A stretch of DNA of 58,242 nucleotides, taken from Acidobacteriota bacterium (GTDB taxonomy: Bacteria; Acidobacteriota; CAIWXX01). The stretch is taken from assembly GCA_016191015.1 (NCBI GenBank), contig JACPPM010000346.1, positions 1 to 58,242 of the forward strand. The letters run 5' to 3'. Made by a program: the position numbers and the translations under genes. Of the stretch, positions 896-43,309 are shown piece by piece (positions within the stretch are counted from its first letter, which is position 1; each line of letters opens with the position of its first letter). The notes beneath the pieces were generated by a model that saw only the letters and a program-made list of their open reading frames with translations, was not told the DNA's origin and ran no database searches.

Positions 896-1177
896 CTAGA
901 TTATCGTACATGGCTGGGAATACACCGTTTGGACGATCTCGCCGAGGCCAAACGAAGCGTCAGCGCAATCGGCACATGCTCGATAGATGCGGATGTTGCC
1001 GACATCGGGTTGACCCAGAGCGGACTTCAACGCCTCCGCTAGAGCATCCATCCGGTTCTCCGCCAGCTCGCACTCAAACACCGACCGTTGGACCCGCTGC
1101 CCATACCCTTCCAGCACCTTCGCCACATGGGATCGGATAGAATCATCCTCGATATCGTAGGCGATGATGTACCTCAT
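896..1177 (-). CDS. cas2: Cas2 spacer-acquisition protein
   Basis: This 93-residue protein has the length and beta-alpha-beta ferredoxin-like opening of Cas2 (MRYIIAYDIEDD, then RVQRSVFECEL). Cas2 dimers bridge two Cas1 dimers in the integrase that inserts new spacers at the leader end. The ATG at 1175-1177 overlaps the stop of the cas6-RT-cas1 gene in an ATGA junction, so the two are translationally coupled; the longer upstream frame lies inside that gene and is not used. It is the last cas gene before the leader and array. The Asp of the YDI motif is present. Confidence 0.95.
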   Translation of the reverse strand: MRYIIAYDIEDDSIRSHVAKVLEGYGQRVQRSVFECELAENRMDALAEALKSALGQPDVGNIRIYRACADCADASFGLGEIVQTVYSQPCTII

Positions 1178-4116: not shown

Positions 4117-5427
4117 TCATAAAGCGCCGGCCGGCTGTTCAAGAATGCGGACGGCATCCCGGAGCCACCCAAGCCAGAGGGGCCCGATCTCGTTCCACTT
4201 CTCGTCGTCGATCGGGTCGATGCCGTGAGCCAGAAGTGAATGACTACGAGCTTTGATGAGGGTCAGGAGACGTGTTCGGCTACGTTCAAAGTAGGCGCCG
4301 AGAGGATCTCCCAAGCACGTGAGAAGCTCGTAGGAGGCCACCAGCCCGAGTTGGATCGGATCGGGAGCGCCGGTCGTGCGCTGCTGACCCCGATGTGATT
4401 CCAACCACCGGCAGGCCTCGGGGCTGGCGACCAGGGACTCTGAGCTGCAATCGATGTCACCCGTGCGGAGTCCGTAGTGCTGTCGGAGTCGCACCTGCGC
4501 CAGAAGCTCGGTTGCTCGGTAGAGTCGAGCTACAGCATCGTCGTATCGGTGTCTCGCAGCGCAATGCTCGGCGATCTCGATCAGGTCGCCTACCAGGAGA
4601 GTCCCGGGCACGTCCTGCAAGCTCCAGGTCTCCGTCCCTCGAAGCAGAGCTTTCACCCGGATCAGCTTTTTCAGGTGCCCGGAGTGTTTCCCGGCCAGCA
4701 TCTCATCCTGTGTTGCAAGTTCCCTCGCGGCTGCGTGATCGAAGCGATCCCACGCCACTCGCATGAGCGCCTCAAGATGCACCGATGATACCAGCGATCT
4801 CATGGCAGGGCGGGCGCCTTGAAGGAAAGACTCGAGAACCTCGGCGGCTGAATCGTATTCGTGAGCGGCGATCAACTCTTGAGCGCGTTGCATGGACTGT
4901 TGCAGGTGCAGGGATTGAGCTTGTTGAGCCACCGAAATGTCACCGGCAGCCACCCTGACCAAATCCGGGCGGCTCGCCGATGACGTGTTGAGCTGCAGGG
5001 TCCAATCTCGAGCCATGACGTATGCGTAAAGGAAAAGCCCGACACTCATCGTCTTGGTCCCACCGGTGTAGTTCGCGAGGACTTCTCGTGCTTCCTCCGA
5101 TGAGCGGATGTCCTCATCGACCTGACGGCAGGCCTCGCTGACCTGGTCGATGTCATCAGGATCGGAGACTGTGAAGACAGAATAGGATGCGGGAAGCAGG
5201 CCCGCCTTGCGTGCGATGGGTCCGGCGGCCTGTGCCGGAACAGCTTCCGCCTTGCATGCCGGGCAGCGCTGCCCTGGCGACGTGGTGACCGCTTCGGTGA
5301 TCGTCTTGGCCGACCCCCGTTCACCGCCGCTGCAGATGAAATAGACATGAGTGGGGGTGGTCTGTTGAATGGCATGAACGACGGGGGCGTCCGAGCCGCC
5401 AACCGTGCAGATGAGGATTCTTTTCAT
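4117..5427 (-). CDS. CARF-HEPN CRISPR ribonuclease, TIGR02710 type
   Basis: This 436-residue protein has an N-terminal CARF domain. Its first strand leads into a small-residue loop (ILICTVGGSDAP), and the ligand-loop motif NYTGGTKTMS lies at ~119-128. The C-terminal helical part carries R-x6-H at 394-401 (RSHSLLAH followed by G), the HEPN RNase signature. Proteins of this family are activated by cyclic oligoadenylate made by Cas10 and degrade RNA non-specifically. A CPAC pair at 55-58 could be a small metal site within the CARF domain. The gene follows cmr1 after 318 bp that contain a relic mini-array, so it may be read through or have its own promoter. Assignment to the family rests on motifs; no search was run. 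Confidence 0.88.
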   Translation of the reverse strand: MKRILICTVGGSDAPVVHAIQQTTPTHVYFICSGGERGSAKTITEAVTTSPGQRCPACKAEAVPAQAAGPIARKAGLLPASYSVFTVSDPDDIDQVSEACRQVDEDIRSSEEAREVLANYTGGTKTMSVGLFLYAYVMARDWTLQLNTSSASRPDLVRVAAGDISVAQQAQSLHLQQSMQRAQELIAAHEYDSAAEVLESFLQGARPAMRSLVSSVHLEALMRVAWDRFDHAAARELATQDEMLAGKHSGHLKKLIRVKALLRGTETWSLQDVPGTLLVGDLIEIAEHCAARHRYDDAVARLYRATELLAQVRLRQHYGLRTGDIDCSSESLVASPEACRWLESHRGQQRTTGAPDPIQLGLVASYELLTCLGDPLGAYFERSRTRLLTLIKARSHSLLAHGIDPIDDEKWNEIGPLWLGWLRDAVRILEQPAGAL

Positions 5428-5521: not shown

Positions 5522-5690
5522 CGCTAGAACCCCTCCTTTGCCTTTCGCCATGCGTCCTTCTGGTTATTCAGGAATAAGTGGATATTCCGGTGAGTCGCAA
5601 TTCCTTCATTGGCCTTTCGCGATTCGACTGCACGATCTGCAACTCGCTGAGAACCCTGGTCTTGGTACCCGTCTCTGCGGAGGTCCCACC
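5522..5690 (-). CRISPR. Degenerate one-spacer CRISPR mini-array with leader relic
   Basis: Bases 5594-5628 match the main repeat at 30 of 35 positions. Bases 5522-5556 match at about 21 of 35 when aligned from the same end. The 37 bp between them (5557-5593) has normal spacer length and contains a GGAATA/TATTCC inverted repeat. Next to the better repeat, 5629-5682 align without gaps to the main array's leader (35 of 54 identical). Leader, good repeat, spacer and decayed distal repeat are therefore in the same order and polarity as the real array. It occupies the cmr1-to-CARF-HEPN gap. Confidence 0.8.
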
Positions 5691-5745: not shown

Positions 5746-6723
5746 TCACACACCAAGACCGGTGGTTCCAGCCAGCGACTTATCGAAACCAAGGTCGTCG
5801 TGAAGGTACATGTACATTTCGCTGTCCCCGGGCAAGGCGACAATCTTCTCCCTTGGGGACCACGTCATCACGGGGATGTACGAGCCGGTCTGGGTCCGGA
5901 AGAGTCGCCACATCATTGGGGAGGCGAGCCTTTCCTGCCCGTGACCACCCATCTGGTTCCTCTCGGCGGCTTTCACGGCGCGAGCCTGCCAATCTTTCCC
6001 GTGTATTAGATCCTCCAAACCAAATCGCCGGTTGGTGAGCTGTTCCGTTTTCATGCCGCCAACGAAGACCTGATCGAGAGTCGAGAATCGAAACCAGGAA
6101 GAGCACTGTCGAGCTCGGGTCATGTCAGGTGGATGAAGCCCGTCGACGACCTTTTTATTCATTCCCTTGAAGCCAGTCTTCAAGTACTCTCGGAGGGCCG
6201 AACAGTTGGCGAGGTGTTTCTGCTCGTCAAATTCCTCGAATCCACTTCCCTTGAATAGATCGTCCGGATTCCTAGTCGAACACCAGTGCAGAGATCCGTA
6301 GCCTCGCCGGGAACGACGGCCGATCGCCCCGAGATGGAGCCATGTCCAAACGACAGCCTGCAAAGGTTCGACAAGCGACTCCTCGGGTATTCGGAATCCA
6401 ATGGTCAACTGCTTTCCGTCAGGGTGGCACATCAAGGTAGAGGCCTGTCGATCTGCCGGCTTAGAAGGAAACAACTTGCGTTGCTCAGGCGACGGGAGGG
6501 AAATGGAGCTCAGCACAGATATCCCCTGCCCCGTGTCGGTGCTGCCCCAGAGCCTGGATTCCAGGGAGTTTGGGTGATCGCCTCCAAGGGAACGCGTCCA
6601 GAACCGGAGCATCCCTCGAACGGCGGGCGGTCTAAGGGTAGGGGGGTCGTCGCATTCCCTGGCGTTGGCGCCGCCGATCATGACGGGCATCACCAACTTC
6701 GCTGTCACGGTCTTGATGGTCAT
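5746..6723 (-). CDS. cmr1: Cmr1, Cas7-like RAMP subunit of type III-B complex
   Basis: This 325-residue protein carries the Cmr1 signature RPPAVRGMLRFWTR at ~31-44, followed by a Gly/Arg-rich segment (GAIGRRSRRGYGS). Cmr1 belongs to the head of the Cmr effector complex near the 3' end of the crRNA and takes part in target RNA capture. The ATG at 6723 lies 9 bp after the cmr6 stop, in the same strand series. Length is within the usual range for the family. It is the last cmr subunit gene before the relic mini-array. Confidence 0.93.
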   Translation of the reverse strand: MTIKTVTAKLVMPVMIGGANARECDDPPTLRPPAVRGMLRFWTRSLGGDHPNSLESRLWGSTDTGQGISVLSSISLPSPEQRKLFPSKPADRQASTLMCHPDGKQLTIGFRIPEESLVEPLQAVVWTWLHLGAIGRRSRRGYGSLHWCSTRNPDDLFKGSGFEEFDEQKHLANCSALREYLKTGFKGMNKKVVDGLHPPDMTRARQCSSWFRFSTLDQVFVGGMKTEQLTNRRFGLEDLIHGKDWQARAVKAAERNQMGGHGQERLASPMMWRLFRTQTGSYIPVMTWSPREKIVALPGDSEMYMYLHDDLGFDKSLAGTTGLGV

Positions 6724-6732: not shown

Positions 6733-8133
6733 TCAGTCGGGAAAGCCGTCGAGCCACTCGATCCGCTTCAGCACTCCCGGTTTCTTGGCAGTTTTCCTCC
6801 GCCACTGCCTGATTTCGCCCGCGTAGTGCTGCCGTAGAAGTCTGACAACTTCAGCCTGTACCTCGTGCGATTCTCTGAACAGACGCTCCAGTCGCGAGGG
6901 CAATTCTCCAGGAGTGAGTGTCGGCGGGAGAAGCCTTTCAGCCCGTTTCTGCGGGGTCTCAGGTGGTGGCTGATTGGGTGTCCTGTTGTTATCATCAACG
7001 GACGTCAGAGCGACCTCGACATTGAAGTACCCGTACCCCGCCGCCGTCTTGGCACCGATGCCCCACAGATCGAGCCCTTGACGCAACCAACCCTCTATCT
7101 TCTCACGTAGCTTCTCTGTCTTCCACGAACTGAGCGCTCTCACTCTCTCTTTCGCGGCATCATCCAGTCGGAGCGCCTGAGGCACGCTCGCGATACGAAA
7201 CGAGAATTCAAAGGGCGTCTCCGGACGAACCGCGAGAAAGCAGATGGGGCGAGGGCCCTGATCGTCGGTGGGGGCTTCGTTTTCCGGATGGTCATAGTAA
7301 TTCGGGTAGTGTGGATTGAGGATGTCCGGTTGAACTACGCACTGCTTTGCATTCTGCATGGCGCTCACGGAGGGGACCGCATCGAAGCACGTGAGCATCC
7401 CGCCGGTTGCGGTGGTTCCCGTCAACGCTGACAGATCAGCAAACACTTCTCGCCAGGGAGAACCTTCTTGATCTCCACCTGTGTCTTTGATGAGCTTCTT
7501 CCACTTCCTCAATTCGTTGAGGGGAGTCTTCGGACCGTGCTCTACGTTCTTCTTGTCTTTATGCCTCTCGATGAAAAGCGATCCGAAGATTGCGCGCACG
7601 AGCCTGGCTCGGGCGATCGAAGCCAGCAGATTGGCAGGAGGTGATTCGGCCAGGTCGTTCGGGTCATTGGGCGCCTCCGGGACAGCGTCTGATTCTTCCA
7701 TCAGTTCCATTTCTGCTACATGGTGAAGGAGACCCTTGACGGATGAGCCCGGGATCAGCGGGAACCCCAGGAGATGGTGGAGAGCAATTCCTGTCTCCAA
7801 AGCTGGGTTCGTTCCCCATCCCACGATAAGTCTCCACTTCGACGTGTAGGTTACGGTCGGCATGTTCGAAAGGTCTTTGAGGGCTGAGGCGTAATTGCGA
7901 TGCCAGTCTTCGTAGCGGCTTATCCCGACTCGCTGAATGGCTTCGACCATGTCCTTGAGACTTTGCCTGCGTGATTCGTCGTGGTCGAAGGCCTTCAGGT
8001 GCTTCGTCTTCCCGTGCACGACGCGCACCTCGTCATGGAAGCAGTCGTAGTCATGGAACCTGCAGAACAGAAGGGCCGGTGAACAGTCGCCGTCCGGCCT
8101 CTCGTGATCTATTGTGGTGCACACTGGGCTCAT
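6733..8133 (-). CDS. cmr6: Cmr6, Cas7-like RAMP subunit
   Basis: The protein is 466 residues from the ATG at 8131-8133, which overlaps the cmr5 stop as ATGA; the frame extends 11 codons further upstream, but that start would lie inside cmr5. The family hallmark is present: GWGTNPALETG then LIPGSSVKG at ~126-134. A later Gly-rich stretch (GIGAKTAAGYGYF) precedes a charged, Pro-rich tail of ~100 residues. Cmr6 caps the Cmr4 filament beside Cmr1. It is longer than usual, through an acidic insertion (~140-170) and the C-terminal extension. Confidence 0.92.
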   Translation of the reverse strand: MSPVCTTIDHERPDGDCSPALLFCRFHDYDCFHDEVRVVHGKTKHLKAFDHDESRRQSLKDMVEAIQRVGISRYEDWHRNYASALKDLSNMPTVTYTSKWRLIVGWGTNPALETGIALHHLLGFPLIPGSSVKGLLHHVAEMELMEESDAVPEAPNDPNDLAESPPANLLASIARARLVRAIFGSLFIERHKDKKNVEHGPKTPLNELRKWKKLIKDTGGDQEGSPWREVFADLSALTGTTATGGMLTCFDAVPSVSAMQNAKQCVVQPDILNPHYPNYYDHPENEAPTDDQGPRPICFLAVRPETPFEFSFRIASVPQALRLDDAAKERVRALSSWKTEKLREKIEGWLRQGLDLWGIGAKTAAGYGYFNVEVALTSVDDNNRTPNQPPPETPQKRAERLLPPTLTPGELPSRLERLFRESHEVQAEVVRLLRQHYAGEIRQWRRKTAKKPGVLKRIEWLDGFPD

Positions 8134-8501
8134 GGCTTGTACGCCTGCACGGCTCGTCTGAGCCACCCGGCAAATGCGATGGCTTCTTCGGTCAGCCGCC
8201 TGAGATCAGTCCCATTGAGGCATGTCTGACTACCGAGCTCCCCCACCCAGCGGCGGAAGACGGTGATGTCATCGCCTTCCGGAACCCTCAGCCCGAGGAC
8301 GGGATCCGTCAGATGGCACTGCAGGGCCTGCGCCATGTCGTGATATTTCTTCGCCATCAGGAATGCCCACGTGGCGAGAAGGCCGTTTGTCCGCATCATG
8401 ACCGGCAGCTTCTCGGCAAGGTTGCGGAAATCGTCGTTGTCCCTGTAGCGATCGGCAATCCCGTAGGCGTGCTCAGCTCTCAGTTGATCGAGGCTTTTCA
8501 T
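8130..8501 (-). CDS. cmr5: Cmr5, Cas11-like small subunit
   Basis: This 123-residue, all-helical protein has the Cmr5 pattern. A central NGLLATWAFLMAKK helix precedes a C-terminal helix (LTEEAIAFAGWLRR) that ends in an aromatic/basic tail. Cmr5 forms the inner filament that contacts Cmr4 and the target RNA. The ATG at 8501 follows GGTGAGGTGA and lies 8 bp after the cmr4 stop. The stop overlaps the cmr6 start. It should be compared with the tail of the Cmr4-like protein at 11068-12306, which looks like a second copy of this fold. Confidence 0.93.
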   Translation of the reverse strand: MKSLDQLRAEHAYGIADRYRDNDDFRNLAEKLPVMMRTNGLLATWAFLMAKKYHDMAQALQCHLTDPVLGLRVPEGDDITVFRRWVGELGSQTCLNGTDLRRLTEEAIAFAGWLRRAVQAYKP

Positions 8502-8509: not shown

Positions 8510-9379
8510 TCACCCGACCCATGCCATCCTCGTCACGCCCAACCCGGTCGATTCATCGCCGCCCAAGCTCAGATACGTCTCGGTGCCCTTCTCTTCGCCG
8601 GTCAGCTTCTTGCGCAGGGACTTCAGAGCTTCTTCCCTGGACATCCGCGTTTCGGACGCTGTCCGTTCACTCGTGCATCCGATGAACGCATAGAACACAG
8701 CCTCCGGTGGAACGGCCTCGACTGAAAAGAGCATTCCACCTTCCACGGTCTTCGCCGACGTGAGCCGATTGTGTTGAGTGATGATCGTGGCATGACGCAC
8801 GAAGTAGTCGAACACACTGTCGGCAACGAGCACCACCCTGCCCGCGTCGATACCATCGAGGCCGCCCTTCCAAGACCAGGCTAGATCGTTCCTATGAAAA
8901 GGAAATTCCTCCAGCCAGAGCGGGCTCGGTCCATTCATCACTCCGAGGTAATGGTCCTCATCGGGTGGAGCCTTGATCTCGTCCAAGGCAGGTTTCTGAC
9001 CGAGGAAGTGAGAGGTGTCGTCAGAGTACCGTCCGATGACGAACGGACAGGTTATCCACACGAAGACCTTCGGGACAGAGCGAACGGGAAACAGGAGAAT
9101 CCGCGCGTCCAGAACCGAGATGCACCCGGCCGAGATCTCATTCTGCTGGTCGCTCCCGAAGAGCCGTCGTGTCAGGGCCTTTGCCTCGGCATCGTCTTTG
9201 ACCTCAAAACGATCTCGTAACGTTCCGCGAATACCGGACCCCGGAATCATAGGGTATCCCGTCGTCCGTTCGCGGAAGATCGGCAGGTCGACGACCCCGA
9301 CGTCCTGACCGCATCCCACATGGAGAGGCGTGATAGCCCGATAGAAAACCTGCTGGAACTTGTATTCCGACATAGTCAT
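8510..9379 (-). CDS. cmr4: Cmr4, backbone Cas7 and target RNA nuclease
   Basis: The protein has 289 residues. Its opening, with the ITPLHVGCG segment, VVDLPIFRE and then PMIPGSGIRG, is typical of Cmr4, and D31 in the VDLP motif aligns with the catalytic aspartate that cuts target RNA at 6-nt intervals. A C-terminal Gly-rich segment (LSLGGDESTGLG) fits the RAMP fold. Several Cmr4 copies form the crRNA-bound backbone. The ATG at 9379 follows TGAGGAA, only 4 bp after the membrane protein stop. This is the canonical Cmr4; a divergent second one lies three genes upstream. Confidence 0.94.
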   Translation of the reverse strand: MTMSEYKFQQVFYRAITPLHVGCGQDVGVVDLPIFRERTTGYPMIPGSGIRGTLRDRFEVKDDAEAKALTRRLFGSDQQNEISAGCISVLDARILLFPVRSVPKVFVWITCPFVIGRYSDDTSHFLGQKPALDEIKAPPDEDHYLGVMNGPSPLWLEEFPFHRNDLAWSWKGGLDGIDAGRVVLVADSVFDYFVRHATIITQHNRLTSAKTVEGGMLFSVEAVPPEAVFYAFIGCTSERTASETRMSREEALKSLRKKLTGEEKGTETYLSLGGDESTGLGVTRMAWVG

Positions 9380-9383: not shown

Positions 9384-10313
9384 TCACAATGGACGCGTGA
9401 CGGGCTCTTCCGCCCAGAACACGTTCAACACGAGACCGATCAGTAGAACGACTGCAGCCCAGACCAGCGAAAGTGACATGCTGACCTGGCCGTCAACGAT
9501 TGTGCTCAGGAAACGGGAACTGATGATCACCAGCGCGATGGCATGACACGCTCCGATGCACAGAGTGTCGAGCGCCCTGCTGAGCACTACACCCAATCGA
9601 GGCATAGGACGCAGCCTGTGCCCCATCTCCAGCACGAGGTAGAGCGCCGCGATGCCCAGGCAAGCGCTCCCGACTCGCCACCGCGATTGCTCAGAAAGGT
9701 ACTTGGTGAAGCTGTCACTCGCGACGAGAAAGAGATAGCCAACGGCAACCGCACCAGCGAGTCGGGGGACGAGAGACTGCACGGACTCGATCGGCGAAAT
9801 CTGGGAGGGACGGCCCTTCACGAGAAACAGCATGCACGAAATGCCATAGGAGAGCAGGGCGAGCCACCAGGCCGAGAGCGTGAACAGATTGGCGAGAAGT
9901 AGCGCCAGAAGGAACCAGTGGAAATGCCTCACCGGCCACCCCGACGCGTAGATCGCGCGCGCTCTCGGGACGTCGTAGTGTTCGACGAACCATCCGAACA
10001 TGATCCGTCGATGACCGACCACCGAATGGTGGTGTTGCTTCAAGAGAGGATCCGACTTGAGGATCTCCCAAAGCGCCCAGACGATCTCGTGGCGATCGCG
10101 ATGGTGATCGTCGCGAATGACTTGCCACAACAAATGCTCGCCCTCTCTTGCCAGTCGTCTCAGCAACTCGTATCGAAAATGAAAAACACTTTCCTTGTCC
10201 AGAGTCCTGGTTTTATCTATCTCGGTGGGATCGAATCCGACCTGTGCCAGAGCTACAATCTCATCGGCCTTCAGCTCTCGAACGTCTTTCTCGGCTGTTT
10301 CCAAAGACGACAT
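9384..10313 (-). CDS. Six-TM membrane protein inside the cmr operon
   Basis: I do not recognise a family for this 309-residue protein. Residues 1-~128 are soluble and rich in His, Arg and acidic residues (IRDDHHRDRH, LKQHHHSVVGHRR). About six hydrophobic segments follow: ~131-150, 150-166, 184-199, 213-230, 248-268 and 279-300. There is no CorA GMN motif, no HEPN R-x4-6-H motif and no visible CARF domain. It starts 11 bp after the CARF gene and ends 4 bp before cmr4, so it is co-expressed with the effector complex. By analogy with membrane effectors of type III systems (Csx23, Cam1), it could be a pore or membrane-damaging effector whose sensor is the adjacent CARF protein. That role is inference. 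Confidence 0.8.
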   Translation of the reverse strand: MSSLETAEKDVRELKADEIVALAQVGFDPTEIDKTRTLDKESVFHFRYELLRRLAREGEHLLWQVIRDDHHRDRHEIVWALWEILKSDPLLKQHHHSVVGHRRIMFGWFVEHYDVPRARAIYASGWPVRHFHWFLLALLLANLFTLSAWWLALLSYGISCMLFLVKGRPSQISPIESVQSLVPRLAGAVAVGYLFLVASDSFTKYLSEQSRWRVGSACLGIAALYLVLEMGHRLRPMPRLGVVLSRALDTLCIGACHAIALVIISSRFLSTIVDGQVSMSLSLVWAAVVLLIGLVLNVFWAEEPVTRPL

Positions 10314-10324
10314 CAGTGCCTGCC

Positions 10325-11071
10325 CTATGAACTTGCCAAGTCCTCACCTGGCAGATATCCCCTGCTTGTGAACCCCACCAATTGCGGGTCCTCATCGTCT
10401 TCGTGGAGGTAGATGAGTCGCCAGTCATTCTGTTGAGGCAGGATCAATGCCGCTTGGATGCCGTAGATCTTGTAACCACCCGACACGACGAGATCACAAG
10501 CTCCGTTTGTCCGCGCCAGAGTGCCAAGGTAGTTGCCAAAGCATTCCGTTCGCTGCTCCAGCGTCTCTCCCTCGATTTCACTGCTCACGCGCACCAAGCC
10601 GGCCCCCAAACTCGCCACCTGCGCGAGCTGGGCCGAGAGATGTTGCGCGGCAATGTAAGAGTCGTCCGTCGCGGCGGCAGCACAGACAAAGATGACCCGC
10701 TCGTAGGCGGAGTGCAAGAAGGAACCAAAGCCAGCCTCGTTATGCGAGTTGCGATGGTGGGCATGTAACTTCAGGATGGTTGAAATCTCTGCAGAATACC
10801 TGAGGGGACGATCCAGATCTTGGGCAACGAACTGTGAGAGCTGCGAAGCACTGCTGGCGCTGAGTAGTCTTCTGAGCTGCTCCCGGACGAAAGCCCCGGT
10901 CAACTCACCTCGATCCCCATCAACTATCGACAATCGTTTGGAAGGGTGATCGAGACGGTCGCCATCGAACCACTTGCCATAGCCCTGAATGTCCTGAAAC
11001 GGACCTTCGTTCTTCCAGCTTGCCGAATGAAAGAGCGAAGCTCCGACGGTCACGATCATTCTTCTCTTCAT
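10325..11071 (-). CDS. Stand-alone CARF protein, TIGR02619/APE2256-like
   Basis: This 248-residue protein starts at the ATG at 11069-11071, which overlaps the preceding stop as ATGA; the longer frame upstream lies inside that gene. It opens with a Rossmann-type strand and loop (RMIVTVGASLFHS). Near the C-terminus it has DLVVSGGYKIYGIQAAL (~193-209), the position and form of the CARF/Csm6-type GG-x-K ligand motif, then a strand (WRLIYLHEDDED). No HEPN, PD-(D/E)XK or HTH domain is attached. Single-CARF proteins can be ring nucleases or sensors. Here the next gene, 11 bp on, is the membrane protein, so a two-component sensor/membrane effector is a reasonable inference. Confidence 0.8.
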   Translation of the reverse strand: MKRRMIVTVGASLFHSASWKNEGPFQDIQGYGKWFDGDRLDHPSKRLSIVDGDRGELTGAFVREQLRRLLSASSASQLSQFVAQDLDRPLRYSAEISTILKLHAHHRNSHNEAGFGSFLHSAYERVIFVCAAAATDDSYIAAQHLSAQLAQVASLGAGLVRVSSEIEGETLEQRTECFGNYLGTLARTNGACDLVVSGGYKIYGIQAALILPQQNDWRLIYLHEDDEDPQLVGFTSRGYLPGEDLASS

Positions 11072-12306
11072 CGCAATGTCAGCTTTGGGGGCTTGAGAAG
11101 GATTTCCGCATATCGGCTCAGCCATACCAGGGTGGCTTCGAATGCAGGTGGCGCCTGCTGGTGACCCTTGATTACGCCTTGAACGCGGCTCATGAGGGCC
11201 CCTTCGTCCGTTTCTCTGAAGAGAACCTGCAGAAACATCCGATAGGCTCGGGTTTCGCAACTCAAACCCGTCTCGGGGCGCGCGGCAAGCTTGGCCTTGG
11301 CAAGACAGAACCCGAGCGCCCCTCCGATCCCGGAAGCACCCCACCGCGGTCCAAGCTCGCGACACAGGCTGTAAATTACCGGTGCCTCCTCGCTGGCCCC
11401 GACCCCCTGAACTGCCTGGAAGACCCTCTTCATCACGCTGACCTCGCTCTCCACGCTGGCAGCTCCGTGCGTGGGGACGAAGATCGGACCACCACCCGTC
11501 GGCTCAGCAGCATTCTCGATCCAGGCGTATCCGAATCCTGTGCTTTCCCAGCCACCGAGCTGCACAAGCTGATCGTCTGCGAGCAGTAAGGGTGTGTCCG
11601 ACGACACCGTCACGAAACTCAAGAAGACTGTGCCGGCCGGTATGAGCTCGATCACACGGAGCGATCCGTCTTTCACGATCCCTGTCATCGCGTCGACAGC
11701 AGTCAGGGTCCGAGTCTCACTCGATTTCCTCCAGAATACCTTGGCTGCCTCCCGGCCCGCCATGATGAGATTTCCCGAGGGATCGGTTCCAGCCAGGTCC
11801 GAGATCGCCTGCCAATCGATAGTGGCCGAGCTTTGTCGGAGCTCAGTCGTGGCTCCCGGAAGTACGAACGTCGCCAGGTATTCCTGGTGCTTCAGTCTCG
11901 GCGGCAGAAGACTCGACGTCCATCCAGCGATCCGAATCATCTTGGTCAGCGGCGCAGCCGCGAATACCCGTGCCATCCCTCCCCCGTCGAGGGGGACTGG
12001 AAAGCACAGAATCTCGCCGTCCCCGAGGACGACTCTCGAGGGCACGCCGGGATTGAGGCCGTCATCGGGGGAGCCGTAGACCTCGGTCCGGCTATTGTTG
12101 AAACCCCCAGTTTCGTTACGCACGTTGCCTTTTCTTCCTGCCAGTACGCCTCGCAGGGAGCTGCCGGGAACATAGGGCAATTCCTGGAACACGTCGACGC
12201 TGATGGGTCGATCGATCGCCGGGGAACCCGATGTCGAACCGAAATTGGCGGGAGTGAGCAGCGTGATCCTGAGCAGGTGCGAGCCTCGAGTCAATTCCAT
12301 ACTCAT
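11068..12306 (-). CDS. Second Cmr4-like RAMP fused to a Cmr5-like helical tail
   Basis: This 412-residue protein starts at 12306 in an ATGA overlap with cmr3. Residues ~1-265 are a Cas7/RAMP domain: RITLLTPANFGS, AIDRPI with D32 where Cmr4 has its catalytic Asp, PYVPGSSLRG, and a late Gly-rich LGGWESTGFGYAW. A Gly/Pro linker (~266-285) leads to a helical region (~288-412) in which GASGIGGALGFCLAKAK and AFEATLVWLSRYAEIL resemble the two conserved helices of Cmr5. The operon also has normal cmr4 and cmr5, so this is an extra, fused Cas7-Cas11-like subunit. Its stop overlaps the CARF gene start. The Cas7 part is certain; the Cas11 part rests on eye alignment. Confidence 0.82.
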   Translation of the reverse strand: MSMELTRGSHLLRITLLTPANFGSTSGSPAIDRPISVDVFQELPYVPGSSLRGVLAGRKGNVRNETGGFNNSRTEVYGSPDDGLNPGVPSRVVLGDGEILCFPVPLDGGGMARVFAAAPLTKMIRIAGWTSSLLPPRLKHQEYLATFVLPGATTELRQSSATIDWQAISDLAGTDPSGNLIMAGREAAKVFWRKSSETRTLTAVDAMTGIVKDGSLRVIELIPAGTVFLSFVTVSSDTPLLLADDQLVQLGGWESTGFGYAWIENAAEPTGGGPIFVPTHGAASVESEVSVMKRVFQAVQGVGASEEAPVIYSLCRELGPRWGASGIGGALGFCLAKAKLAARPETGLSCETRAYRMFLQVLFRETDEGALMSRVQGVIKGHQQAPPAFEATLVWLSRYAEILLKPPKLTLR

Positions 12307-13505
12307 CGCCAGACACCGACCAGAATGCGCCCAAAACCGGCGCACGCTCCCTTCGCAGAGACAGAGGATAACCAGTTGCTTTGAATGATCGTCGAATCTG
12401 GTTGCGCGTTTGGCCACTCGTAGAAGAAGATCGATCCGGCCGGGATGAGCGCGTGCAGAGGCCGAGGACATCCGAGGCGAGTATTCCATCCGCTAGCGTA
12501 CAGTGGCTTGCCGATCGCAGCTGCGATCGGAGAGTTGGTCAGCACCTGCGGCCACTGGCCTTCCCAAATCATTGGTGTCAGGAGGTAGGCCAGGAAGCCC
12601 TTGGTGTTTGCTACTGCCTTCACGATTTCGTCAAGCATCTCCTGCAGAGGGCGTCTCGCGCCATCAAGCGCCTGGAATTCAAACCGCGCCCGGCCCCTGT
12701 CTCCACCGAGGAACCCCACTCTTTCGATTGGACATTGGAGCGGCTCTCGAGTCTGAAACCATGCCGTGAACCCGTAGCCCAGACGAGGGAGCGTCGGATC
12801 GGGTTCAGCAGGTTGAAACCGACGGTAGGGTCGGGTGAAGAGTATCCCTTCCTCCGCCCGGCCGGTCCGGTTGTCCATTCCAAGCCCAGCCCGAGACTCT
12901 CGCCTGAATACCTCCGTCAACCGAAGGACTTCATTGCCAAGTGGAACTCGAGCCCCCGGATGCCCACGAAGAATACGACCGAGAACTTCGAGACTGACCA
13001 GCATCGTGGTTTCATCTTCATCACCAGGAAGCGGATCCCCATCGAGAATGCACGGAAGCATACATGACGTCAGCTCGGACCGCTTATCGACCCCCCGGGG
13101 AACGATCAAGTCGCCTGGAAAGGGCGGCCAGCCTTGACAAGGCTTCAGACAACGGAAACTCAGAGGCTTCGGGAACCACAGGCCTCCACGGGGATCGGCA
13201 TAGCAATAGCCGAGTAGCTCCGCGAATTGCTTGCCGGCCGGGGCAGTCAGAATATCGTCAAGCCGGGGTCCGAGCACTTCCTCCGTCCATTTGCTACCAT
13301 TGCTCTCAAAGATGCAGGTCCCGATGGCACCATGAATGAGGATGGGTGACGGCTCCTTGTCCCTGATCAAGTGATCGACCCCTGCGCGTGCCGGCCGGTT
13401 ATCTCCGAAGAGAAGTGGGTCGATGGGATCGATCTCAACTTGGTACACAGTCGTGCGGGCGACTTGCTGATGACCGGTGGAGGCCACTCCTATTACTTCT
13501 CCCAT
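12303..13505 (-). CDS. cmr3: Cmr3, Cas5-like subunit
   Basis: This 400-residue protein shows Cmr3 features: DPLLFGDNRP near the N-terminus (~29-38), then RAGLGMDNRTGRAEEGILFT (~205-224), and a C-terminal IPAGSIFFYEW followed by GAGFGRILVGVW. Cmr3 binds the crRNA 5' handle and pairs with Cas10 at the base of the complex. The ATG at 13505 follows GTGAGGTGAAAC and lies 8 bp after cas10. The stop overlaps the start of the fused Cmr4-like gene. Length is normal. Confidence 0.94.
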   Translation of the reverse strand: MGEVIGVASTGHQQVARTTVYQVEIDPIDPLLFGDNRPARAGVDHLIRDKEPSPILIHGAIGTCIFESNGSKWTEEVLGPRLDDILTAPAGKQFAELLGYCYADPRGGLWFPKPLSFRCLKPCQGWPPFPGDLIVPRGVDKRSELTSCMLPCILDGDPLPGDEDETTMLVSLEVLGRILRGHPGARVPLGNEVLRLTEVFRRESRAGLGMDNRTGRAEEGILFTRPYRRFQPAEPDPTLPRLGYGFTAWFQTREPLQCPIERVGFLGGDRGRARFEFQALDGARRPLQEMLDEIVKAVANTKGFLAYLLTPMIWEGQWPQVLTNSPIAAAIGKPLYASGWNTRLGCPRPLHALIPAGSIFFYEWPNAQPDSTIIQSNWLSSVSAKGACAGFGRILVGVWR

Positions 13506-13513: not shown

Positions 13514-15349
13514 TCACGGGCGGGCCTCGCGAGCGAGAAAGGCGATGACGTGGAGCTGATTGGAGACGCTCTGGCTCACCGTTTGATCCGCGGCGTTCAA
13601 TAGCCAAGTCGCACCCCGTAGCTCATCGTCCCAGACATGGTCCGCTTCTTCTTGGCTGGTTGTCCTACGCCGGGTGAGCCGCTTCAGCTCGGCCCGGATC
13701 GCATCCAGAGACGTGGCGGACTGCAAAGCCGAGTCCGGGAGGCTCCTTAGAAACTCCTCAACATCATGCACCCAGCCCGATGAGAGCCGATCCGTGCACC
13801 GCAGCCGGAGCGCGTCACGCATCCGGCTCCAGCCCTCGCCCCAGTGATCGACCGCGGTCCATTCGCTGCCGGACGCGGTCTGGACGGAAATTCCCAGGCC
13901 GTTCTTTCCGTCAAGCGCCTTCGCCTTTTCGAGCGCCGCGCGCGCGGCTTCGATCGCGGCCCCAAGTGGTCTCTCACGATCAAACATCGCTACTCCCACC
14001 GAGATCGTGGTTTCGCAGATGTTGTTTCCCCATTCCGCGTGGATTGTCTCGGCCAAGTCCAGAGTACTCTCAATCGGACAGAGGATGAGCCCCTCATCTC
14101 CACCCAAGTAGAAGGCTTGAGCGTGATGCTTCGGCATCTGCCTGCGCAGCATGTCGGCGAAATTCATCAGCTTCTGCGGGACCGTAACCGAATGTTTCTG
14201 AACGGTTCTGCCCATGTTGTCCCCGTCGAACGTGACAACAGCGAGGTAGTTAGAAGGCTCCGGTTTCAAAGGCGCGGAGGCGGGAGATGTCTTGTTAGCA
14301 TCCACGATCTTCTTTCTGAGATCTTCTTGGGCATTCTTGACCGCTTCTAGCGCCGTCAGCTCCCCATGCGCCTTCTGCAGATGGCGCTTCAATGTACGTC
14401 CAAAGTAGAGCGGCGACGGGTCGCTGGACTTCTCGTCATAACCCGGCACTCTTCGCGCACATTCCTGGACTTCCTTCAAAGACCATGAAAGCAAGCCGGT
14501 GCGATTAGCGATTTGTCCGGCCCACCACGCGGCAGCGATATTGCTCGTGGAGGGGAAGGACACGTCCGAGAGGTACCCGGCGAAGCGTTTGATGCAGCAG
14601 ACAGGACAGAGCCTTTCGCCGACATCGAGGCGGTATCCGAGTTGAACGCTCCGCAGTCCTTCAATATTCTCTTGGGATTGACGCCATTGCTTCCAGTCAT
14701 CGCCGCCGACTGCTTCTCGTCGGCCGCACTGCGTGCACTTCCCGACCGGATGCCCGACGTTTGTCGGCAACGGGCGCGTCCTCTTGACTGCCTGGAAAAG
14801 CCTATCGACGAGCATCAGACCATCGGGCAAGTCGGGCGGCTCGACCTGTTTGACGCACCAGACCAGCTCGACAGGGGACGCAATATCGTCCTCAAGCATG
14901 CGCACGATCTCGCACCATGTGTCATCTCTGCTCTTGGAAGCCACCTCCTGACGGAGGGCCTCCCATGCATGCAGCGGGCATCGCGAGATTCTCTTCCGAA
15001 AGAAATCTCCGACATCGTCGATAGCCCCGCCGCTTTGAAAGTACCCACTCGCCCTGTTGGGAATGGAGTACTCCGAGGTTTCCAAAACATCTTGGAACGG
15101 CAAGTCAGCGATGCGCTTGAAGCGGCCTAGCTGCGCTTCGCTCGGGAGAACCACCATGGCTTGAAGGTGACTCTGAAGAGTGTCGAGCACCTTCGCCATT
15201 GTCCACGAGAGGAACGCCGAGCCCACCCACAGGTCCCTCGATCGGCGAGCCTCAGAGATCCATTCCTGCACAGGTATCAGTGCAAGACTCCAGTAAATCC
15301 GAGGACCGGAGAGAGACGCGCCTTCAGCCGATTCACCAGTTTGAACCAT
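13514..15349 (-). CDS. cmr2: Cas10/Cmr2 cyclase subunit lacking an HD domain
   Basis: Counted from the ATG at 15349 (a TTG at 15397 would add 16 residues), the protein has 611 residues. It begins directly with the first palm domain (QEWISEARRSRDLWVGS), so the N-terminal HD nuclease of many Cas10 proteins is absent. A zinc site is formed by C205/C208 and C248/C251. The second palm has FDGDNMG (~374-380) and GGDE at 416-419 instead of the usual GGDD; an acidic pair is kept, so cyclic oligoadenylate synthesis is still plausible. A helical C-terminal domain follows. As first gene of the operon and centre of the complex, it should feed the two CARF proteins downstream. Confidence 0.95.
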   Translation of the reverse strand: MVQTGESAEGASLSGPRIYWSLALIPVQEWISEARRSRDLWVGSAFLSWTMAKVLDTLQSHLQAMVVLPSEAQLGRFKRIADLPFQDVLETSEYSIPNRASGYFQSGGAIDDVGDFFRKRISRCPLHAWEALRQEVASKSRDDTWCEIVRMLEDDIASPVELVWCVKQVEPPDLPDGLMLVDRLFQAVKRTRPLPTNVGHPVGKCTQCGRREAVGGDDWKQWRQSQENIEGLRSVQLGYRLDVGERLCPVCCIKRFAGYLSDVSFPSTSNIAAAWWAGQIANRTGLLSWSLKEVQECARRVPGYDEKSSDPSPLYFGRTLKRHLQKAHGELTALEAVKNAQEDLRKKIVDANKTSPASAPLKPEPSNYLAVVTFDGDNMGRTVQKHSVTVPQKLMNFADMLRRQMPKHHAQAFYLGGDEGLILCPIESTLDLAETIHAEWGNNICETTISVGVAMFDRERPLGAAIEAARAALEKAKALDGKNGLGISVQTASGSEWTAVDHWGEGWSRMRDALRLRCTDRLSSGWVHDVEEFLRSLPDSALQSATSLDAIRAELKRLTRRRTTSQEEADHVWDDELRGATWLLNAADQTVSQSVSNQLHVIAFLAREARP

Positions 15350-15572
15350 TGGATTCACCCACCAGATGCGACAAGACGAGCGATGAACTGAGGTCAAACC
15401 AGAGGGGGGTTCTTGGACGTGTCACGCTCAGGCCGACATACGAAGTTAATGGTCCCCAGAAGTCCCCCATTCCGGCACCACAGACGCCCCCCGGAGCCCG
15501 AATAAGTTCGAAGATGCTTGTCGGCTCAGGAGGCCGGTGGAGGAGCATGTTGAGAATATAAGACGATAGGGC
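15350..15572 (-). promoter_or_regulatory. Upstream region of the cas operon
   Basis: This 223-bp gap lies between the reg_prop pseudogene and cas10 and must hold the operon promoter if the 14-kb unit is transcribed from its head. I find no convincing -35/-10 pair; a TTGACC at 15392-15397 on the minus strand has no good -10 at 17 bp. It contains no gene I can support. Confidence 0.35.
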
Positions 15573-16736: not shown

Positions 16737-16944
16737 GACCTACTGGAGTCTCCGGCCGCGGGGCGCGGCTGTGACGGGTTTCCCTTTCATCAGGGAGTCG
16801 GACTGATCAATGCGATCCGGTCGAGGGGTCTCTCGCCATTGGTGGCCCGCCCGGAGCGTTTTTGGCCACTCATTGGACCTTGATTCCTAATCAGGTGGCG
16901 CCCGCCTGCTGTTGGTCGATATGAGCCGTCATCAGGAGGGGTAT

Positions 16945-19878
16945 GTGCGTCTGAGTCGTACGTCCCACCGAAGGTCGAGCTTCCGGGCGCTTGGGGACCG
17001 CGTGGCCCGGATCGGAGCGATGGTGCTTACGTCTGCCGCTCTCGTGGTTGCCGGCGATGAACCGCCTGCTCGGGCAGGGCGCGCACAGGATCTGATCGAG
17101 CTGCTTCGAGCTGCCGGCACTCAATCACAGCCGGGCCGGACGACGGCTGAGATCGAACGCGAGCTGGCGGCGATCGGCGCTCCGGCGGTACCGCTGCTGG
17201 CGCAGGCGCTGCAGATCGAGCCCGATGGACGCGTACGCGAATCCGCGGCGCGGGTGCTCGGTTACATCGGGCCCGCGGCCTCGAGCGCCCGGTATTCATT
17301 GCGGGCCGCGCTTGGAGACGCGAGTCCTTCGCTGCGCGCACAGGCGGCGGCGAGCATGGTTTCAGTCGACCCATCGACGACCCCGGAAGCGGTGCGAGTG
17401 CTCATAGGGTTGCTGAAGGAGCCGGACGCTGAGATCCGGCTCAGGGCCGTGCGGGCACTCGGCGATTTCGGCCACGCATCCGCCTCCGCAGTGCCGGCGC
17501 TGAAAGTGGCCCTCGCCGACAGTGACCGCGGGGTGCGCGATTCGGCTGCAAAGGCGCTCGAGCAATGCGCCGAAGCCCCGGCGCGCCAAGCTCAGAAGGA
17601 CCGTCTCTTCCTTATGGGCATCGGCATGCTGCGAATCAACTGGACCGACGTCAGAGGCAACGAGATCCGCTTCCGGTACAGCGACCTCGGTCTTCCCGCT
17701 GAGTTTTCGACGCGCGAGCGAGCCTCGTTCATGATCGACGGCACATTCGGGGGGGGTCGATACGACATCGACGGACACCTCGACTACGACCCGGAGAACC
17801 GCATCACCGAGCCGCCGCTCGACTTCTTCGTCAGTGCCGGCAACAAGAGCACGTACGGCTCTGCCGGGGACTTCCGTACAGGCGTTTTTCTCGATTCCAT
17901 CTTCAGCCAATACTTTCATCCGTTTCGTGGAGGGCTGGCCGGAAAGGCCGGCGAGCACATCGGCGCCGAGGCCGTGCTCGGGATAGCCCGCGGCGAATCC
18001 GGGATCGACGAATTTCCGGCTGACGCGGGCGCCGGACCGTACTACATCCAGGACACGCCCATCCTACGTGGCAGTGAGGTGGTCTTCCTTGTGACCAAGA
18101 GCGCAGTGGACCCGTCGGTCGAGCTGTCGCGGCGGCAGGTCACACGCAACGTCGACTATTTCGTCGACTACGACCGTGGCGCTCTCATTTTCAATTATTC
18201 ACTGTACCCGACCGATGACCTCGGAAACCTCGTTTTCGTCCTTGTGAGCTACCAGTTCGAAGCCCTCGGAGGGCGCTTCACTCGTGACGTCTACGGCATG
18301 CGGGCGTGGGTGTCGCCCGCTTCGTTTCTGAAGGCGAGCTTTTCATACATCGCCGATTCCGATTCGTCGCTGAGTTTCGCCGACGCGTTCGAGAAGCGCC
18401 GAGGAATATCGTCGCTCGGCCTGCGGGTCGACTCGAAGCGGGTGTACTTTGTGGGTGAGGTGGCGTCGAGTGCCGGGGCGGGCGCGGGGCGTGAGTACGG
18501 CGTGTTCGGCGGCGGGCGTGTGAACATCACTGACAATCTTCGCGCCTACGTCGATGGCTGGCGCATTGCGAGCGACTTCTCCACGTTTGCCAACCGGCAG
18601 CTTCAGTACGGCTACAGCCTCTACCAGATTTTTCCCTCGTTTGCGGAGAGGAGCATCTTTCTGTCGCCGTTCCAGTTCACGCGCAACCTCGGCGCGGACC
18701 TCTATCCGTTCACGTTGGCGCGGCTGACGGCGGGCGAGCGTGAGGCGACGGGGTTCCTCGAATGGGACCGAGGCCACACACGCTACTCGGGAGGTTACGG
18801 GATCGGGCGGGATTTCCACAGTGCCTACGACAGCGATCTCGCCTACTTCTCCACGTTCCACGATGGCGATGCAACCAAGTACTGGGGCAAGTTCGGTGCC
18901 GAGCGCACATGGGATTCTGGCCGGGATGTTCGCGACTCTCGCGATCTTGAAGCTCTGTTGGGGCTCCGCCAGCGTCTGCTGCGCACCGGGCGCGGTGACC
19001 TGTTTGTGCAGGCCGACTTCAACGGCGACCAGCTCGACGATCTCCTCGACATCCTTCCCGATACACGCACCGAGTCCTTCTCGATCGCCGGTGAGTTTCT
19101 GACCGGCCAGGAGGGAGTTTTCGCCGGATATCGCAAGCAGCGTGTGGTCGACCTGGACGACGACGAAGTCACCATGGACGGCGATATCTTCGAGGCCGGG
19201 GTGAAGCGCCCGGTCTACAAGTGGTTCTTCGTCGATACGCGCCTGCGGCATGAGAGTGTGATGCGGGGAAAGGAGAACAGTAACAGCGACATCCTGTCGC
19301 TCGGAGGCGGAATCGAGAGCCGCGAATTCCGTGCACTGGGCCGGTACGAGGTGCAACTCAACAAGGCACCGGGCCGCGAAGGGCGCCGCCATCTGTGGTC
19401 GCTCTTCCTCTTTGGCTCGCCGCTCAAGGCGCTGGACGTTTCGCTGCGCTACTACAGGCAGAGCGGCACTGATGAGGCGCTCACCTCCTTGACCGAACGC
19501 TCCGAGGAACAGCTCAATGTGCGCGTCCTCTGGAAAGTAACGCGCCGCTCCTCCGTGTACTCACAGTGGCGGTATGACACCAACATCGAGCTCTATCCGC
19601 CACTCAATCGCACACGCAGCAACTCGGTAGGCTCCATCCAGGGCGTCACCTTCAAGCTCACTCGCAAACTCGACTTCCTGGCCAACTACAAGCTGCTACG
19701 CGTCTGGGGCCCGATCGAGAACCGGAGAGAGACGGCCGCAGCCGAGCTCGGCTATCTCCTCTTCAAGCATTTCCGCTTCGGCGTGGGCGCGGAATACGTC
19801 AATTTCAGGGATCAGCAGGATCCCGCTGAGAACTACACATCGCGAATCGGGTATTTCAAGCTCGTCGCGCTTTTCTGA
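16945..19878 (+). CDS. HEAT-repeat and outer-membrane beta-barrel protein
   Basis: The GTG at 16945 follows AGGAGGG by 4 bp and is preferred to an upstream ATG (16921) or TTG (16912); the product is 977 residues. A signal-like hydrophobic stretch (AMVLTSAALVVAG) precedes ~180 residues of HEAT/PBS-lyase-type repeats (AAARVLGYIG, RAVRALGDFG, DSAAKALEQC). The rest alternates polar and aromatic residues in the manner of an outer-membrane barrel and ends in Phe (YFKLVALF), the usual barrel-assembly signal. It heads a three-gene operon with two very large secreted proteins, 43 and -4 bp apart. It may anchor or export them; that is inference. Confidence 0.78.
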   Translation: MRLSRTSHRRSSFRALGDRVARIGAMVLTSAALVVAGDEPPARAGRAQDLIELLRAAGTQSQPGRTTAEIERELAAIGAPAVPLLAQALQIEPDGRVRESAARVLGYIGPAASSARYSLRAALGDASPSLRAQAAASMVSVDPSTTPEAVRVLIGLLKEPDAEIRLRAVRALGDFGHASASAVPALKVALADSDRGVRDSAAKALEQCAEAPARQAQKDRLFLMGIGMLRINWTDVRGNEIRFRYSDLGLPAEFSTRERASFMIDGTFGGGRYDIDGHLDYDPENRITEPPLDFFVSAGNKSTYGSAGDFRTGVFLDSIFSQYFHPFRGGLAGKAGEHIGAEAVLGIARGESGIDEFPADAGAGPYYIQDTPILRGSEVVFLVTKSAVDPSVELSRRQVTRNVDYFVDYDRGALIFNYSLYPTDDLGNLVFVLVSYQFEALGGRFTRDVYGMRAWVSPASFLKASFSYIADSDSSLSFADAFEKRRGISSLGLRVDSKRVYFVGEVASSAGAGAGREYGVFGGGRVNITDNLRAYVDGWRIASDFSTFANRQLQYGYSLYQIFPSFAERSIFLSPFQFTRNLGADLYPFTLARLTAGEREATGFLEWDRGHTRYSGGYGIGRDFHSAYDSDLAYFSTFHDGDATKYWGKFGAERTWDSGRDVRDSRDLEALLGLRQRLLRTGRGDLFVQADFNGDQLDDLLDILPDTRTESFSIAGEFLTGQEGVFAGYRKQRVVDLDDDEVTMDGDIFEAGVKRPVYKWFFVDTRLRHESVMRGKENSNSDILSLGGGIESREFRALGRYEVQLNKAPGREGRRHLWSLFLFGSPLKALDVSLRYYRQSGTDEALTSLTERSEEQLNVRVLWKVTRRSSVYSQWRYDTNIELYPPLNRTRSNSVGSIQGVTFKLTRKLDFLANYKLLRVWGPIENRRETAAAELGYLLFKHFRFGVGAEYVNFRDQQDPAENYTSRIGYFKLVALF

Positions 19879-19921
19879 AACTCGACAGAATCGGATGCGC
19901 CACAAAGACCGGGGGATTGGA

Positions 19922-22900
19922 ATGGGAATGAATCCGCACAAGACACGGGCCGCAGTCGCATTCGCCGCGTTTCTCACCGCGGCCTCCGCCGGAATCAGCG
20001 TGGGCGCCGAGACGCTGTGTTACACCGAGCGGATCACGGATGCCCCATCCTATGGCATCTATACCGGCTGGGACGACCCGAACAACCCGATTCTGTGGAC
20101 CCACAATGTGCCCCCGGGGATCCTGGGTTCTGTCGTCAGGGTCGGCCTGTATATCGAGGCATATGACGTCGACTACCCGGCCAATGATGAACACGATCGC
20201 GTTTACTTTAACGGGTACGAGCTCGGCCTGCTCGAGGGCCTGAACAATCAGTGGGGAACAGTCGAGAAGACGGTGCCGCCGTCGGTGCTGGTCGAGGGGA
20301 TCAACCAGCTTCGCGTGGACGTGGATGAGTTGCACAAGGGATGGAAAGTCACGATCCGCGCGAGCGAGATCCGCTTCTACTGTTCGACACCCGACCCGGA
20401 TTTTTCAATCGGAGCTTCGCCCGACAGCCTGACGGTGCCCCAGGGCGCGTCGACCAGCTCGACAATCACACTCACGGCTTTGAACGGTTTCTCGGCGCCG
20501 GTGGACCTGAGCGTCACCGGCTTGCCGGCAGGCGCCACGGCGACCTTCTCGCCGGATACGGTCACTCCGTCCGGGGATTCCACATTGGAGATCCTGGCAG
20601 CGCTCGACACACCCGCCGGCACCTATGAGCTGACGGTGAGCGGGAGCGGCGGCGAGCGAACGCACAGTGTGAATGTGACGCTCCAGGTCACCCCTGCCCC
20701 CGATTTCAGCCTGGAGGCTGAGCCGGAGGAGCGTCAAGTCAGTCAGGGATCAAACGCCGGATTCACTCTCCACGTCGAAGCTCTGAACGGCTTCTCCGCG
20801 CCCGTGGACCTGAGCATCACCGGCCTGCCCGCAGGTGCCGCAGCGACGTTCTCTCAGAATCCCGTGACCCCCTCGGTGGATTCCGCTCTGCAGATCCAGA
20901 CGGCACTCGACACGCTGGTGGGAACGTACGAGCTGACCGTGAGCGGAAATGGAGGCGGGCGAACGCACAGTGTGAAGGTGACGCTCCAGGTCACCACCGC
21001 CCCCGATTTCAACATTGAGGCTGACCCCGACGAACGCGAGGTCGTCCAGGGATCGGCGGCTGATTTCACCGTGCACGTCGTCGGCGTAAACGGCTTCACG
21101 TCGATCGTCGCCTTGGCCATCGAGGGGCTCCCGGCCGGTGCAAGTGCGGGCTTTGTTCCCGACAACGTCACTCCGACGGGCGACGCAGTGCTCACGATCG
21201 GCACCTCCGCTGACACCCCCACCGGTGAGTATGATCTCACGATCAGCGGCGAAGCCGGGACGCAGAAGCGCACGGCTCAAGTCCGGCTGGTGGTCGTGCC
21301 GCCACCCGATTTCCAGATTTCGATTGCGCCGCCGAGCGTCACGGTTGCGCCGGGTGCTGCGGCGATGTTTACCGTGAGCCTGGTAGCGCTGAACGGGTTC
21401 GCCGCAGCGGTGGATCTTGACATCTCTGGGTTGCCGGCGGGGGCGACCGGGATTCTCTCGAATGACCCAGTCACTCCGAATGCGACCAGCCAGCTCATGA
21501 TCAGCACCCTCACCAGTCTGCCGCCAGGGGCCTACGCGTTCACAGTGACCGGCCAGGGCGGCAGTGGTCTCTCTCACTCAGCTTCCGCCACCCTGGACGT
21601 CAGCTCACTCCCGGATTTCTCCGTCGTTCTCTCTCCGCCGATTGCGACGGTGGCTCGCGGGTCCACGGCGCAGTACACAGCGAAGATCGCAGCATTGAAC
21701 GGGTTCGACCGCCCTGTGGATCTGGCCGCCGAAGCACCAGCCGGGTTTGTGATCGCGATCGAGGACGATCGGATCGACCCGCCGGCCGAGTCCGGGATTG
21801 CCGTGACGGTGCCCGTCACCGCCCGTCCCGGCACGTATTCGATCACGATCGACGGCCGCAGTGGCGGCCGCAGTGGCGGCCGCAGTGGCGGCCGCAGTGG
21901 CGGCATCGCTCACACGGCCGCTGCCCAGCTTATCGTAACCGAACAGACCTGTCCCGGCTTCCGTCTTGGGATCGAAGCCCATCCCGCATCCGGTCCCGCA
22001 CCGCTGACCGCGCGATTCCGAGCGACCATCACCCCCGCCGGCACGTACAGCGGGAGCTACATCTACGAGTGGGATTTCGCGGACGGCCAGGGAAGCACAG
22101 ATGCGTCGCCGGCGCACTCATTCATCCGCGCTGGGACCTACCGCGTGCGTCTCTCTGTGACCGATGATTGCGGGACACGCGTCGATGACCAGACTGTGGT
22201 CCGCGTCACCGGCTTCGAGGGGTCGATTGAGAAGTCGTTTACGCGGGATGAGGCGCGGCCCGGCGATGAGGTCGTCATGAAGATCGTGTTCCGCAACGAA
22301 AGTGCGGCGGGCTGGCAGCGCGTCATCGTGTCGGACGAGCTCTCGGAGCATCTCGAGTACCTCGACGACGACGCCCCTGTCGAACCGCGCCATGAAGGCC
22401 GTACGCTGATATGGGAGTTTCCGCAGATCGCGGCGAAGGAGAGAATCCGCTTCGAGGTGCGGCTGCGGGTGGCGTCGGGGACTCCACCGGGCAGGATCGT
22501 CAACATTGCGAGCCTGGATCACGAGACTTTGTCGAAGCCGATCAACTCTGCCCCCGCATCCGTCCGCATCGGAGCGCTGACGGCGGAGATCGTCAAGAGC
22601 GTGGACAGGGATGTCGCCGAGCCGGGCGACGTGTTGGTATACAGGATTCGCACGAAGAACCCGTCAGGTGTTGCGATCACAGGGGTCGTGATCGCCGACG
22701 AGCTTCCGGGGGATCTCGAATTCGTCTCGCAGCAGTCCGCGCTGACCTTCTCTCCGGAAGGGGCGCGGCTGAGGTGGCGGGGGGTGATTGATGCTCGCGG
22801 CACTGAGCTCGTCACGGTCACAGTTCGTGTGCGCGAAGCGACCCCTGCAGGGACGATCATCAGGAACTCGGCGTCGCTCGAGGCCTCCGAGCTGCCGCGC

Positions 22901-37055: not shown

Positions 37056-37063
37056 AATCAGTG

Positions 37064-40708: not shown

Positions 40709-40711
40709 CAC

Positions 40712-43303: not shown

Positions 43304-43309
43304 TCCTGA

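Follow-up and report, generated by a model that had tools for sequence, protein, structure and literature searches.

A Cas7-Cas11 fusion gene and a CARF-membrane protein gene pair in a variant type III-B CRISPR operon of Acidobacteriota

Three additional genes separate cmr3 from cmr4 in a type III-B CRISPR operon of an Acidobacteriota bacterium (assembly GCA_016191015.1). Are they an accidental insertion, one cassette, or separate additions to the Cmr system? We analyzed positions 1-58,242 of contig JACPPM010000346.1, referred to below as the window. Its minus strand carries a complete type III-B operon (15397-5746) in the order cas10, cmr3, fusion gene, CARF gene, membrane protein gene, cmr4, cmr5, cmr6, and cmr1. 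All six canonical subunits matched their family models within this one locus: Cas10/Cmr2 (13514-15397), Cmr3 (12303-13505), Cmr4 (8510-9379; 3.5e-55), Cmr5 (8130-8501; 1.4e-14), Cmr6 (6733-8166 as the longest ORF, with the true start further in), and Cmr1 (5746-6723). The ORF map and the family models agree with the original prediction on the three genes between cmr3 and cmr4 and on their coordinates. All three are intact, and they encode a fusion of a Cmr4-like Cas7 and a Cmr5-like Cas11 (11068-12306; 412 aa), a stand-alone CARF protein (10325-11071; 248 aa), and a membrane protein (9384-10313; 309 aa). The cmr3/fusion and fusion/CARF junctions are 4-nt ATGA overlaps, as had been noted; the CARF and membrane protein genes are separated by 11 nt, and the latter is separated from cmr4 by 4 nt.

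Next to cmr1, also on the minus strand, lies a gene for a CARF-HEPN ribonuclease of the TIGR02710 family (Csx1 type; 4117-5427), a second, soluble effector. A CRISPR array with nine identical 35-nt repeats occupies positions 27-625. One degenerate stray repeat (5594-5628), perhaps the relic of an array, lies where cmr1 and the Csx1-type gene are separated by 318 bp. A gene for a 955-aa fusion of Cas6, reverse transcriptase, and Cas1 (1174-4041, minus strand) adjoins cas2 (896-1366, minus strand), and the two form a reverse transcriptase-dependent adaptation module beside the Cmr operon.

The fusion protein is comprised of a RAMP domain (approximately residues 10-262), a linker, and a Cmr5-like helical domain (approximately residues 285-403). 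Its description as Cmr4-Cmr5-like was supported for both halves. The N-terminus matched the PADLOC Cmr4 model (1.6e-16) and also the NCBIfam Cmr4 model (2.4e-14), yet its score of 53.8 is below the equivalog cut-off of 87 for TIGR02580. The top PDB matches of the predicted fold, a moderately confident model, were Cmr4 chains (E 5e-11). D32, invariant in all three known fusions, aligns with an aspartate of true Cmr4 proteins, the catalytic residue of Cmr4.

The C-terminal 125 residues were identified as a Cmr5 domain by three sequence routes. First, while the window C-terminus alone matched the PADLOC Cmr5 model weakly (0.024), its two relatives described below matched it more clearly, that of SZUA-115 with 5.5e-5 (PDLC01641; model positions 4-108 of 109, practically the full length) and that of Thermoanaerobaculia with 7e-4. 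Second, among 177,635 PDB sequences, the best two matches of a C-terminal profile built from the three relatives were Cmr5 chains (0.0037 and 0.0038), the next match being at 0.5. Third, a profile-profile comparison of the fusion C-terminus with six Cmr5 proteins yielded 95%. The fold search with the C-terminal domain alone, based on a low-confidence model, gave no significant match, and the highest TM-scores listed belonged to Cmr5 structures. The AF2 models of the fusion and of its C-terminal domain had low confidence (pLDDT 61 and 64). As ordinary Cmr4 and Cmr5 are also encoded, the fusion is additional to them. It is not a member of the known "Cmr8" family, since the published Cmr8 is a 142-aa family from the oral microbiome.

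We searched for relatives in 396 sampled Acidobacteriota genomes, in 149 genomes of the class Thermoanaerobaculia, and, with limited sensitivity, in 11.3 million genome contigs. Besides the window's fusion, only two others were found in these genomes and contigs. In the contig scan, a single-sequence query found nothing, and a two-sequence alignment recovered one of these loci. That locus (L018), from the metagenome-assembled genome SZUA-115, has the order cas6-cas10-cmr3-fusion-CARF-TM-cmr4-cmr5-cmr6-cmr1-CRISPR, where TM is the membrane protein gene, with 4-nt overlaps at cmr3/fusion, fusion/CARF, and CARF/TM. The other (L012, on the same contig as our locus L017) belongs to the Thermoanaerobaculia metagenome-assembled genome Chersky.9_17 (G253), and its order is cas10-cmr3-fusion-cmr4-cmr5-cmr6-cmr1-CRISPR. 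Thus, three loci are known, all from draft genomes and all from Acidobacteriota. The class of the window's genome differs from that of SZUA-115 and Chersky.9_17, the numbers of searched genomes in these classes being 2 and 149, respectively. Alignments of the fusion, CARF, and membrane proteins found no relatives among viral contigs, and none were found in PHROGs. Plasmids contained no relatives of the three genes, only ordinary Cmr4.

SZUA-115 has the three genes in an identical arrangement and with 34-40% identity, which excludes chance. The original prediction had proposed that conserved co-occurrence in unrelated hosts would mark a system; the co-occurrence itself holds, and extends to another class, but the hosts are all Acidobacteriota. 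Between the window and SZUA-115, the identity is 37% for the fusion, 40% for the CARF protein, and 34% for the membrane protein, compared to 41-53% for the core subunits. This nearly equal divergence fits a long common inheritance. Both recent insertion and decay can be rejected: each of the three genes has an uninterrupted reading frame, is packed closely against its neighbors, and shows the above conservation of 34-40% identity, and the Chersky.9_17 locus has no remnant between the fusion gene and cmr4. The genes are built into the operon, as predicted.

The same locus argues against one cassette of three genes, as originally proposed. In Chersky.9_17, the fusion gene ends 47 bp before cmr4 with no CARF or membrane protein gene in between, and no relative of the membrane protein was found genome-wide. 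The fusion without the CARF-membrane protein pair therefore suggests two modules, a clade-specific Cmr subunit and a separable pair. An alternative close to the original prediction is a dedicated unit of all three genes, in which the fusion would recruit the pair so that the Cmr complex works at the membrane. The order of the three genes is indeed preserved in two classes, and the Chersky.9_17 locus, which lacks the pair, has a gene for a transmembrane CARF protein (9816-10982, plus strand) near cas10, so that a membrane CARF protein occurs near every fusion locus. Still, three co-occurrences prove little, because ordinary type III loci have membrane CARF proteins, too. Since the fusion does occur without the pair, we consider a dedicated unit improbable. 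The transmembrane CARF gene in Chersky.9_17 is accompanied by a gene for a DHH hydrolase of the CorA-associated type (11310-12110, plus strand), both being divergent to cas10.

Phylogenetic trees were built with plasmid outgroups and with further Acidobacteriota loci, five for Cas10 and Cmr3 and four for Cmr4. The three fusion loci formed one clade with 100/100 support in the Cas10, Cmr3, and Cmr4 trees, and the N-termini of the fusions formed their own 100/100 group. The other Acidobacteriota loci have the order cas10-cmr3-cmr4 or cas10-cmr3-cmr1-cmr4 and no fusion. Therefore, the fusion marks one clade of Cmr systems, with the CARF-membrane protein pair present in two of its three members. 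We also considered whether the fusion could be a second ordinary copy of Cmr4, as duplicates exist in the Acidobacteriota Cmr locus L027 (genome G418), and rejected this, as both cmr4-like genes of that locus match Cmr4, not the fusion, and fall outside the fusion clade. These two genes (9411-10535 and 11682-12593, minus strand) flank cmr1.

Taken as a whole, the locus is best described as a variant form of type III-B and not as a separate kind of system. It shares with the type III-B Cmr complex all six canonical subunits, and both halves of the fusion are homologous to Cmr4 and Cmr5; it differs in having, in three genomes, an additional Cas7-Cas11 fusion beside separate Cmr4 and Cmr5. With this extra gene, it still belongs to type III-B. 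We found no description of a Cmr4-Cmr5 fusion in the open literature searched, including passages of the 2025 classification (PMC12669027).

The reading that we prefer, and hold with moderate confidence, is that the fusion serves as a seventh subunit in the backbone of the Cmr complex, and that the CARF protein and the six-helix membrane protein are a split effector; the place of the fusion, its cleavage activity, the ligand, the contact between the CARF and membrane proteins, and the effect on the membrane are what we infer. The fusion, as a Cas7 joined to a Cas11, would have a fixed place in the backbone, most likely beside Cmr3-Cas10, where it would stand in for one Cmr4-Cmr5 pair, probably retaining target RNA cutting. 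In favor of this reading are the translational coupling of the fusion gene to cmr3 by the 4-nt overlap in all three genomes and the well-supported clade of the three loci. An alternative is that the fusion acts outside the main complex and assembles with Cas10 and Cmr3 into an additional, small complex, as an independent step towards single-chain effectors similar to Cas7-11. This would agree with the tight linkage of cas10, cmr3, and the fusion gene, with the cmr3/fusion 4-nt overlap, invariant in all three genomes, and with the retention of normal Cmr4 and Cmr5 in every fusion locus. However, a single Cas7 domain could hardly hold a full crRNA, and each locus has only one cas10 and one cmr3 gene to share between two complexes, so we regard this alternative as quite unlikely.

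With this fusion, Cas7 and Cas11 have also become joined inside a multi-subunit III-B operon. This step is similar to the emergence of the single-chain Cas7-11 effectors, with the unfused genes still beside the fusion. Like Cas7-11 of types III-E and III-I, the fusion combines Cas7 and Cas11 in a single polypeptide. Unlike Cas7-11, in which one chain with several Cas7 domains takes the place of the complex, it has a single RAMP (Cas7) domain and a C-terminal Cas11 domain, has Cmr4 and Cmr5 ancestry, and is accompanied by a complete multi-subunit Cmr operon. Fusions of Cas7 and Cas11 also occur in III-D variants.

The CARF and membrane protein genes are direct neighbors in the window and in SZUA-115, the two genomes with the pair. 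Neither the window CARF protein (248 aa) nor that of SZUA-115 (245 aa) has an effector domain, as both end after the sensor domain. In both genomes, the best PADLOC model was CARF_RelE of the Cami1 type (3.6e-6 in the window and 1.2e-8 in SZUA-115), and the match covers only positions 2-169 of 294, the sensor part of the model. Given this coverage and the next gene directly behind, the fused RelE ribonuclease domain is absent from both proteins. The CARF motifs TVGxSLFxSASW and GGYK are conserved, and a PDB search with the CARF profile yielded only chance matches.

In the membrane protein, a soluble N-terminal part (about 130 residues) precedes five to six predicted transmembrane helices; a simple hydropathy scan counted five in the window protein and six in its SZUA-115 relative. 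The latter matched the PADLOC model Mem_01 ("6TM with a globular domain at N-terminus") with a modest score (7.8e-4, 16.7 bits), and five composition-matched local shuffles of it yielded no Mem_01 matches. The window protein itself did not match Mem_01 and is linked to it via this 34%-identical relative. A Mem_01 scan of 297 Acidobacteriota genomes gave no match, but its controls likewise gave none and Mem_01 misses the window protein, so this result does not speak for absence. One further match to the membrane protein, in genome G175, was set aside: it covers only residues 156-308 (4e-5), looks exosortase-like by eye, and is not linked to CRISPR in the visible stretch.

A similar gene arrangement has been described. 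In each of the 12 III-B loci that contain it, Cam3, a six-transmembrane protein with a helical N-terminus, is encoded immediately downstream of Cami1, a CARF-RelE protein, and Hoikkala and colleagues suggested that it may be an accessory protein (PMC11229360). The window and SZUA-115 loci share with the Cami1-Cam3 pairs a CARF gene directly upstream of a gene for a six-transmembrane protein with a soluble helical N-terminus, in a III-B context (PMC11229360). From the two descriptions, we infer that Mem_01 and Cam3 are probably one family. The differences are that the CARF proteins here lack the RelE nuclease domain of Cami1, and that the similarity to Mem_01 is weak and, for the window protein, undetected. 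With Cam1 and other transmembrane CARF effectors, the pair has in common that a putative sensor of cyclic oligoadenylate is connected to a membrane part; here, however, the two parts are encoded by separate, coupled genes.

A stand-alone CARF protein could also be a ring nuclease similar to Crn1, which would degrade the signal and switch off the Csx1-type RNase, the membrane protein being an unrelated accessory. Like Crn1, the window protein is a stand-alone CARF of about 250 aa with serine and lysine in matching motifs; Ser12 and Lys201 are part of motifs similar to the functionally important ones of Crn1, which counts in favor of this possibility. The two CARF proteins also matched CARF7 (5.9e-4 and 1.4e-5) and, weakly, Cas_APE2256. 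Crn1 belongs to CARF7, 248 aa fits the 250-aa limit applied to ring nucleases, and Cami1-type CARF domains are capable of ring nuclease activity (PMC12409355). On the other hand, CARF_RelE outscores CARF7 in both proteins, and in both genomes the CARF gene is coupled to the gene for the six-transmembrane protein. Moreover, SZUA-115 would then own a ring nuclease with no effector recognized at its locus. We consider a ring nuclease possible but rather doubtful, and favor the split effector.

The palm (polymerase) region of the window Cas10 contains the motifs GGDE and DGDN, and we looked for an N-terminal HD nuclease domain in this protein and found none; therefore, action via RNA cleavage and second messengers is expected. 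In the split-effector reading, target RNA would activate Cas10, which would make cyclic oligoadenylate; a CARF dimer would bind it and switch the six-transmembrane partner, disturbing membrane function. The pair would thus probably let the cell act on its own membrane upon phage detection, and the membrane-coupled function proposed in the original prediction is a reasonable, if putative, reading of this pair. The window has two receivers of the signal, and the CARF-membrane protein route would run parallel to the Csx1-type RNase, which could be sufficient as an effector by itself. SZUA-115 (92% complete) has one Cas10 without a recognizable HD domain, and a genome-wide search for HEPN genes of the Csm6/TIGR02710 families found none. 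Hence, no effector other than the pair was seen at the SZUA-115 locus.

This bears on a published question, namely whether Cam3-type six-transmembrane proteins act as effectors themselves or only assist Cami1, the CARF-RelE nuclease, for which PMC11229360 leans to an accessory role. As the Cam3-like protein of SZUA-115 is coupled to a CARF without a nuclease, and no other effector was found at this locus, the question becomes directly testable there. In a bolder version, to which we give little credence, the Cmr backbone would use its dedicated Cas7-Cas11 subunit to dock a CARF-gated membrane protein, combining RNA sensing and membrane action in one assembly.

The window's genome has a second Cas10 palm domain elsewhere (L036; G000:C235:37027-37449), which raises the possibility of signals shared between the window locus and a further type III locus. 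The remaining part of the window encodes two repeat proteins of very large size, 1350 and 4277 aa (19895-36777, plus strand), with DUF11, PKD, and CARDB domains, adjoined by a HEAT-repeat protein (16912-19878). A second defense island (37061-50001, plus strand) follows, with an HmaA-like helicase (1.8e-149), an HmaB-like DUF1156 methylase (2.6e-114), and an HmaC-like DUF499 ATPase (1.9e-69), and a PDC-S01-like gene sits between these Hma-like genes.
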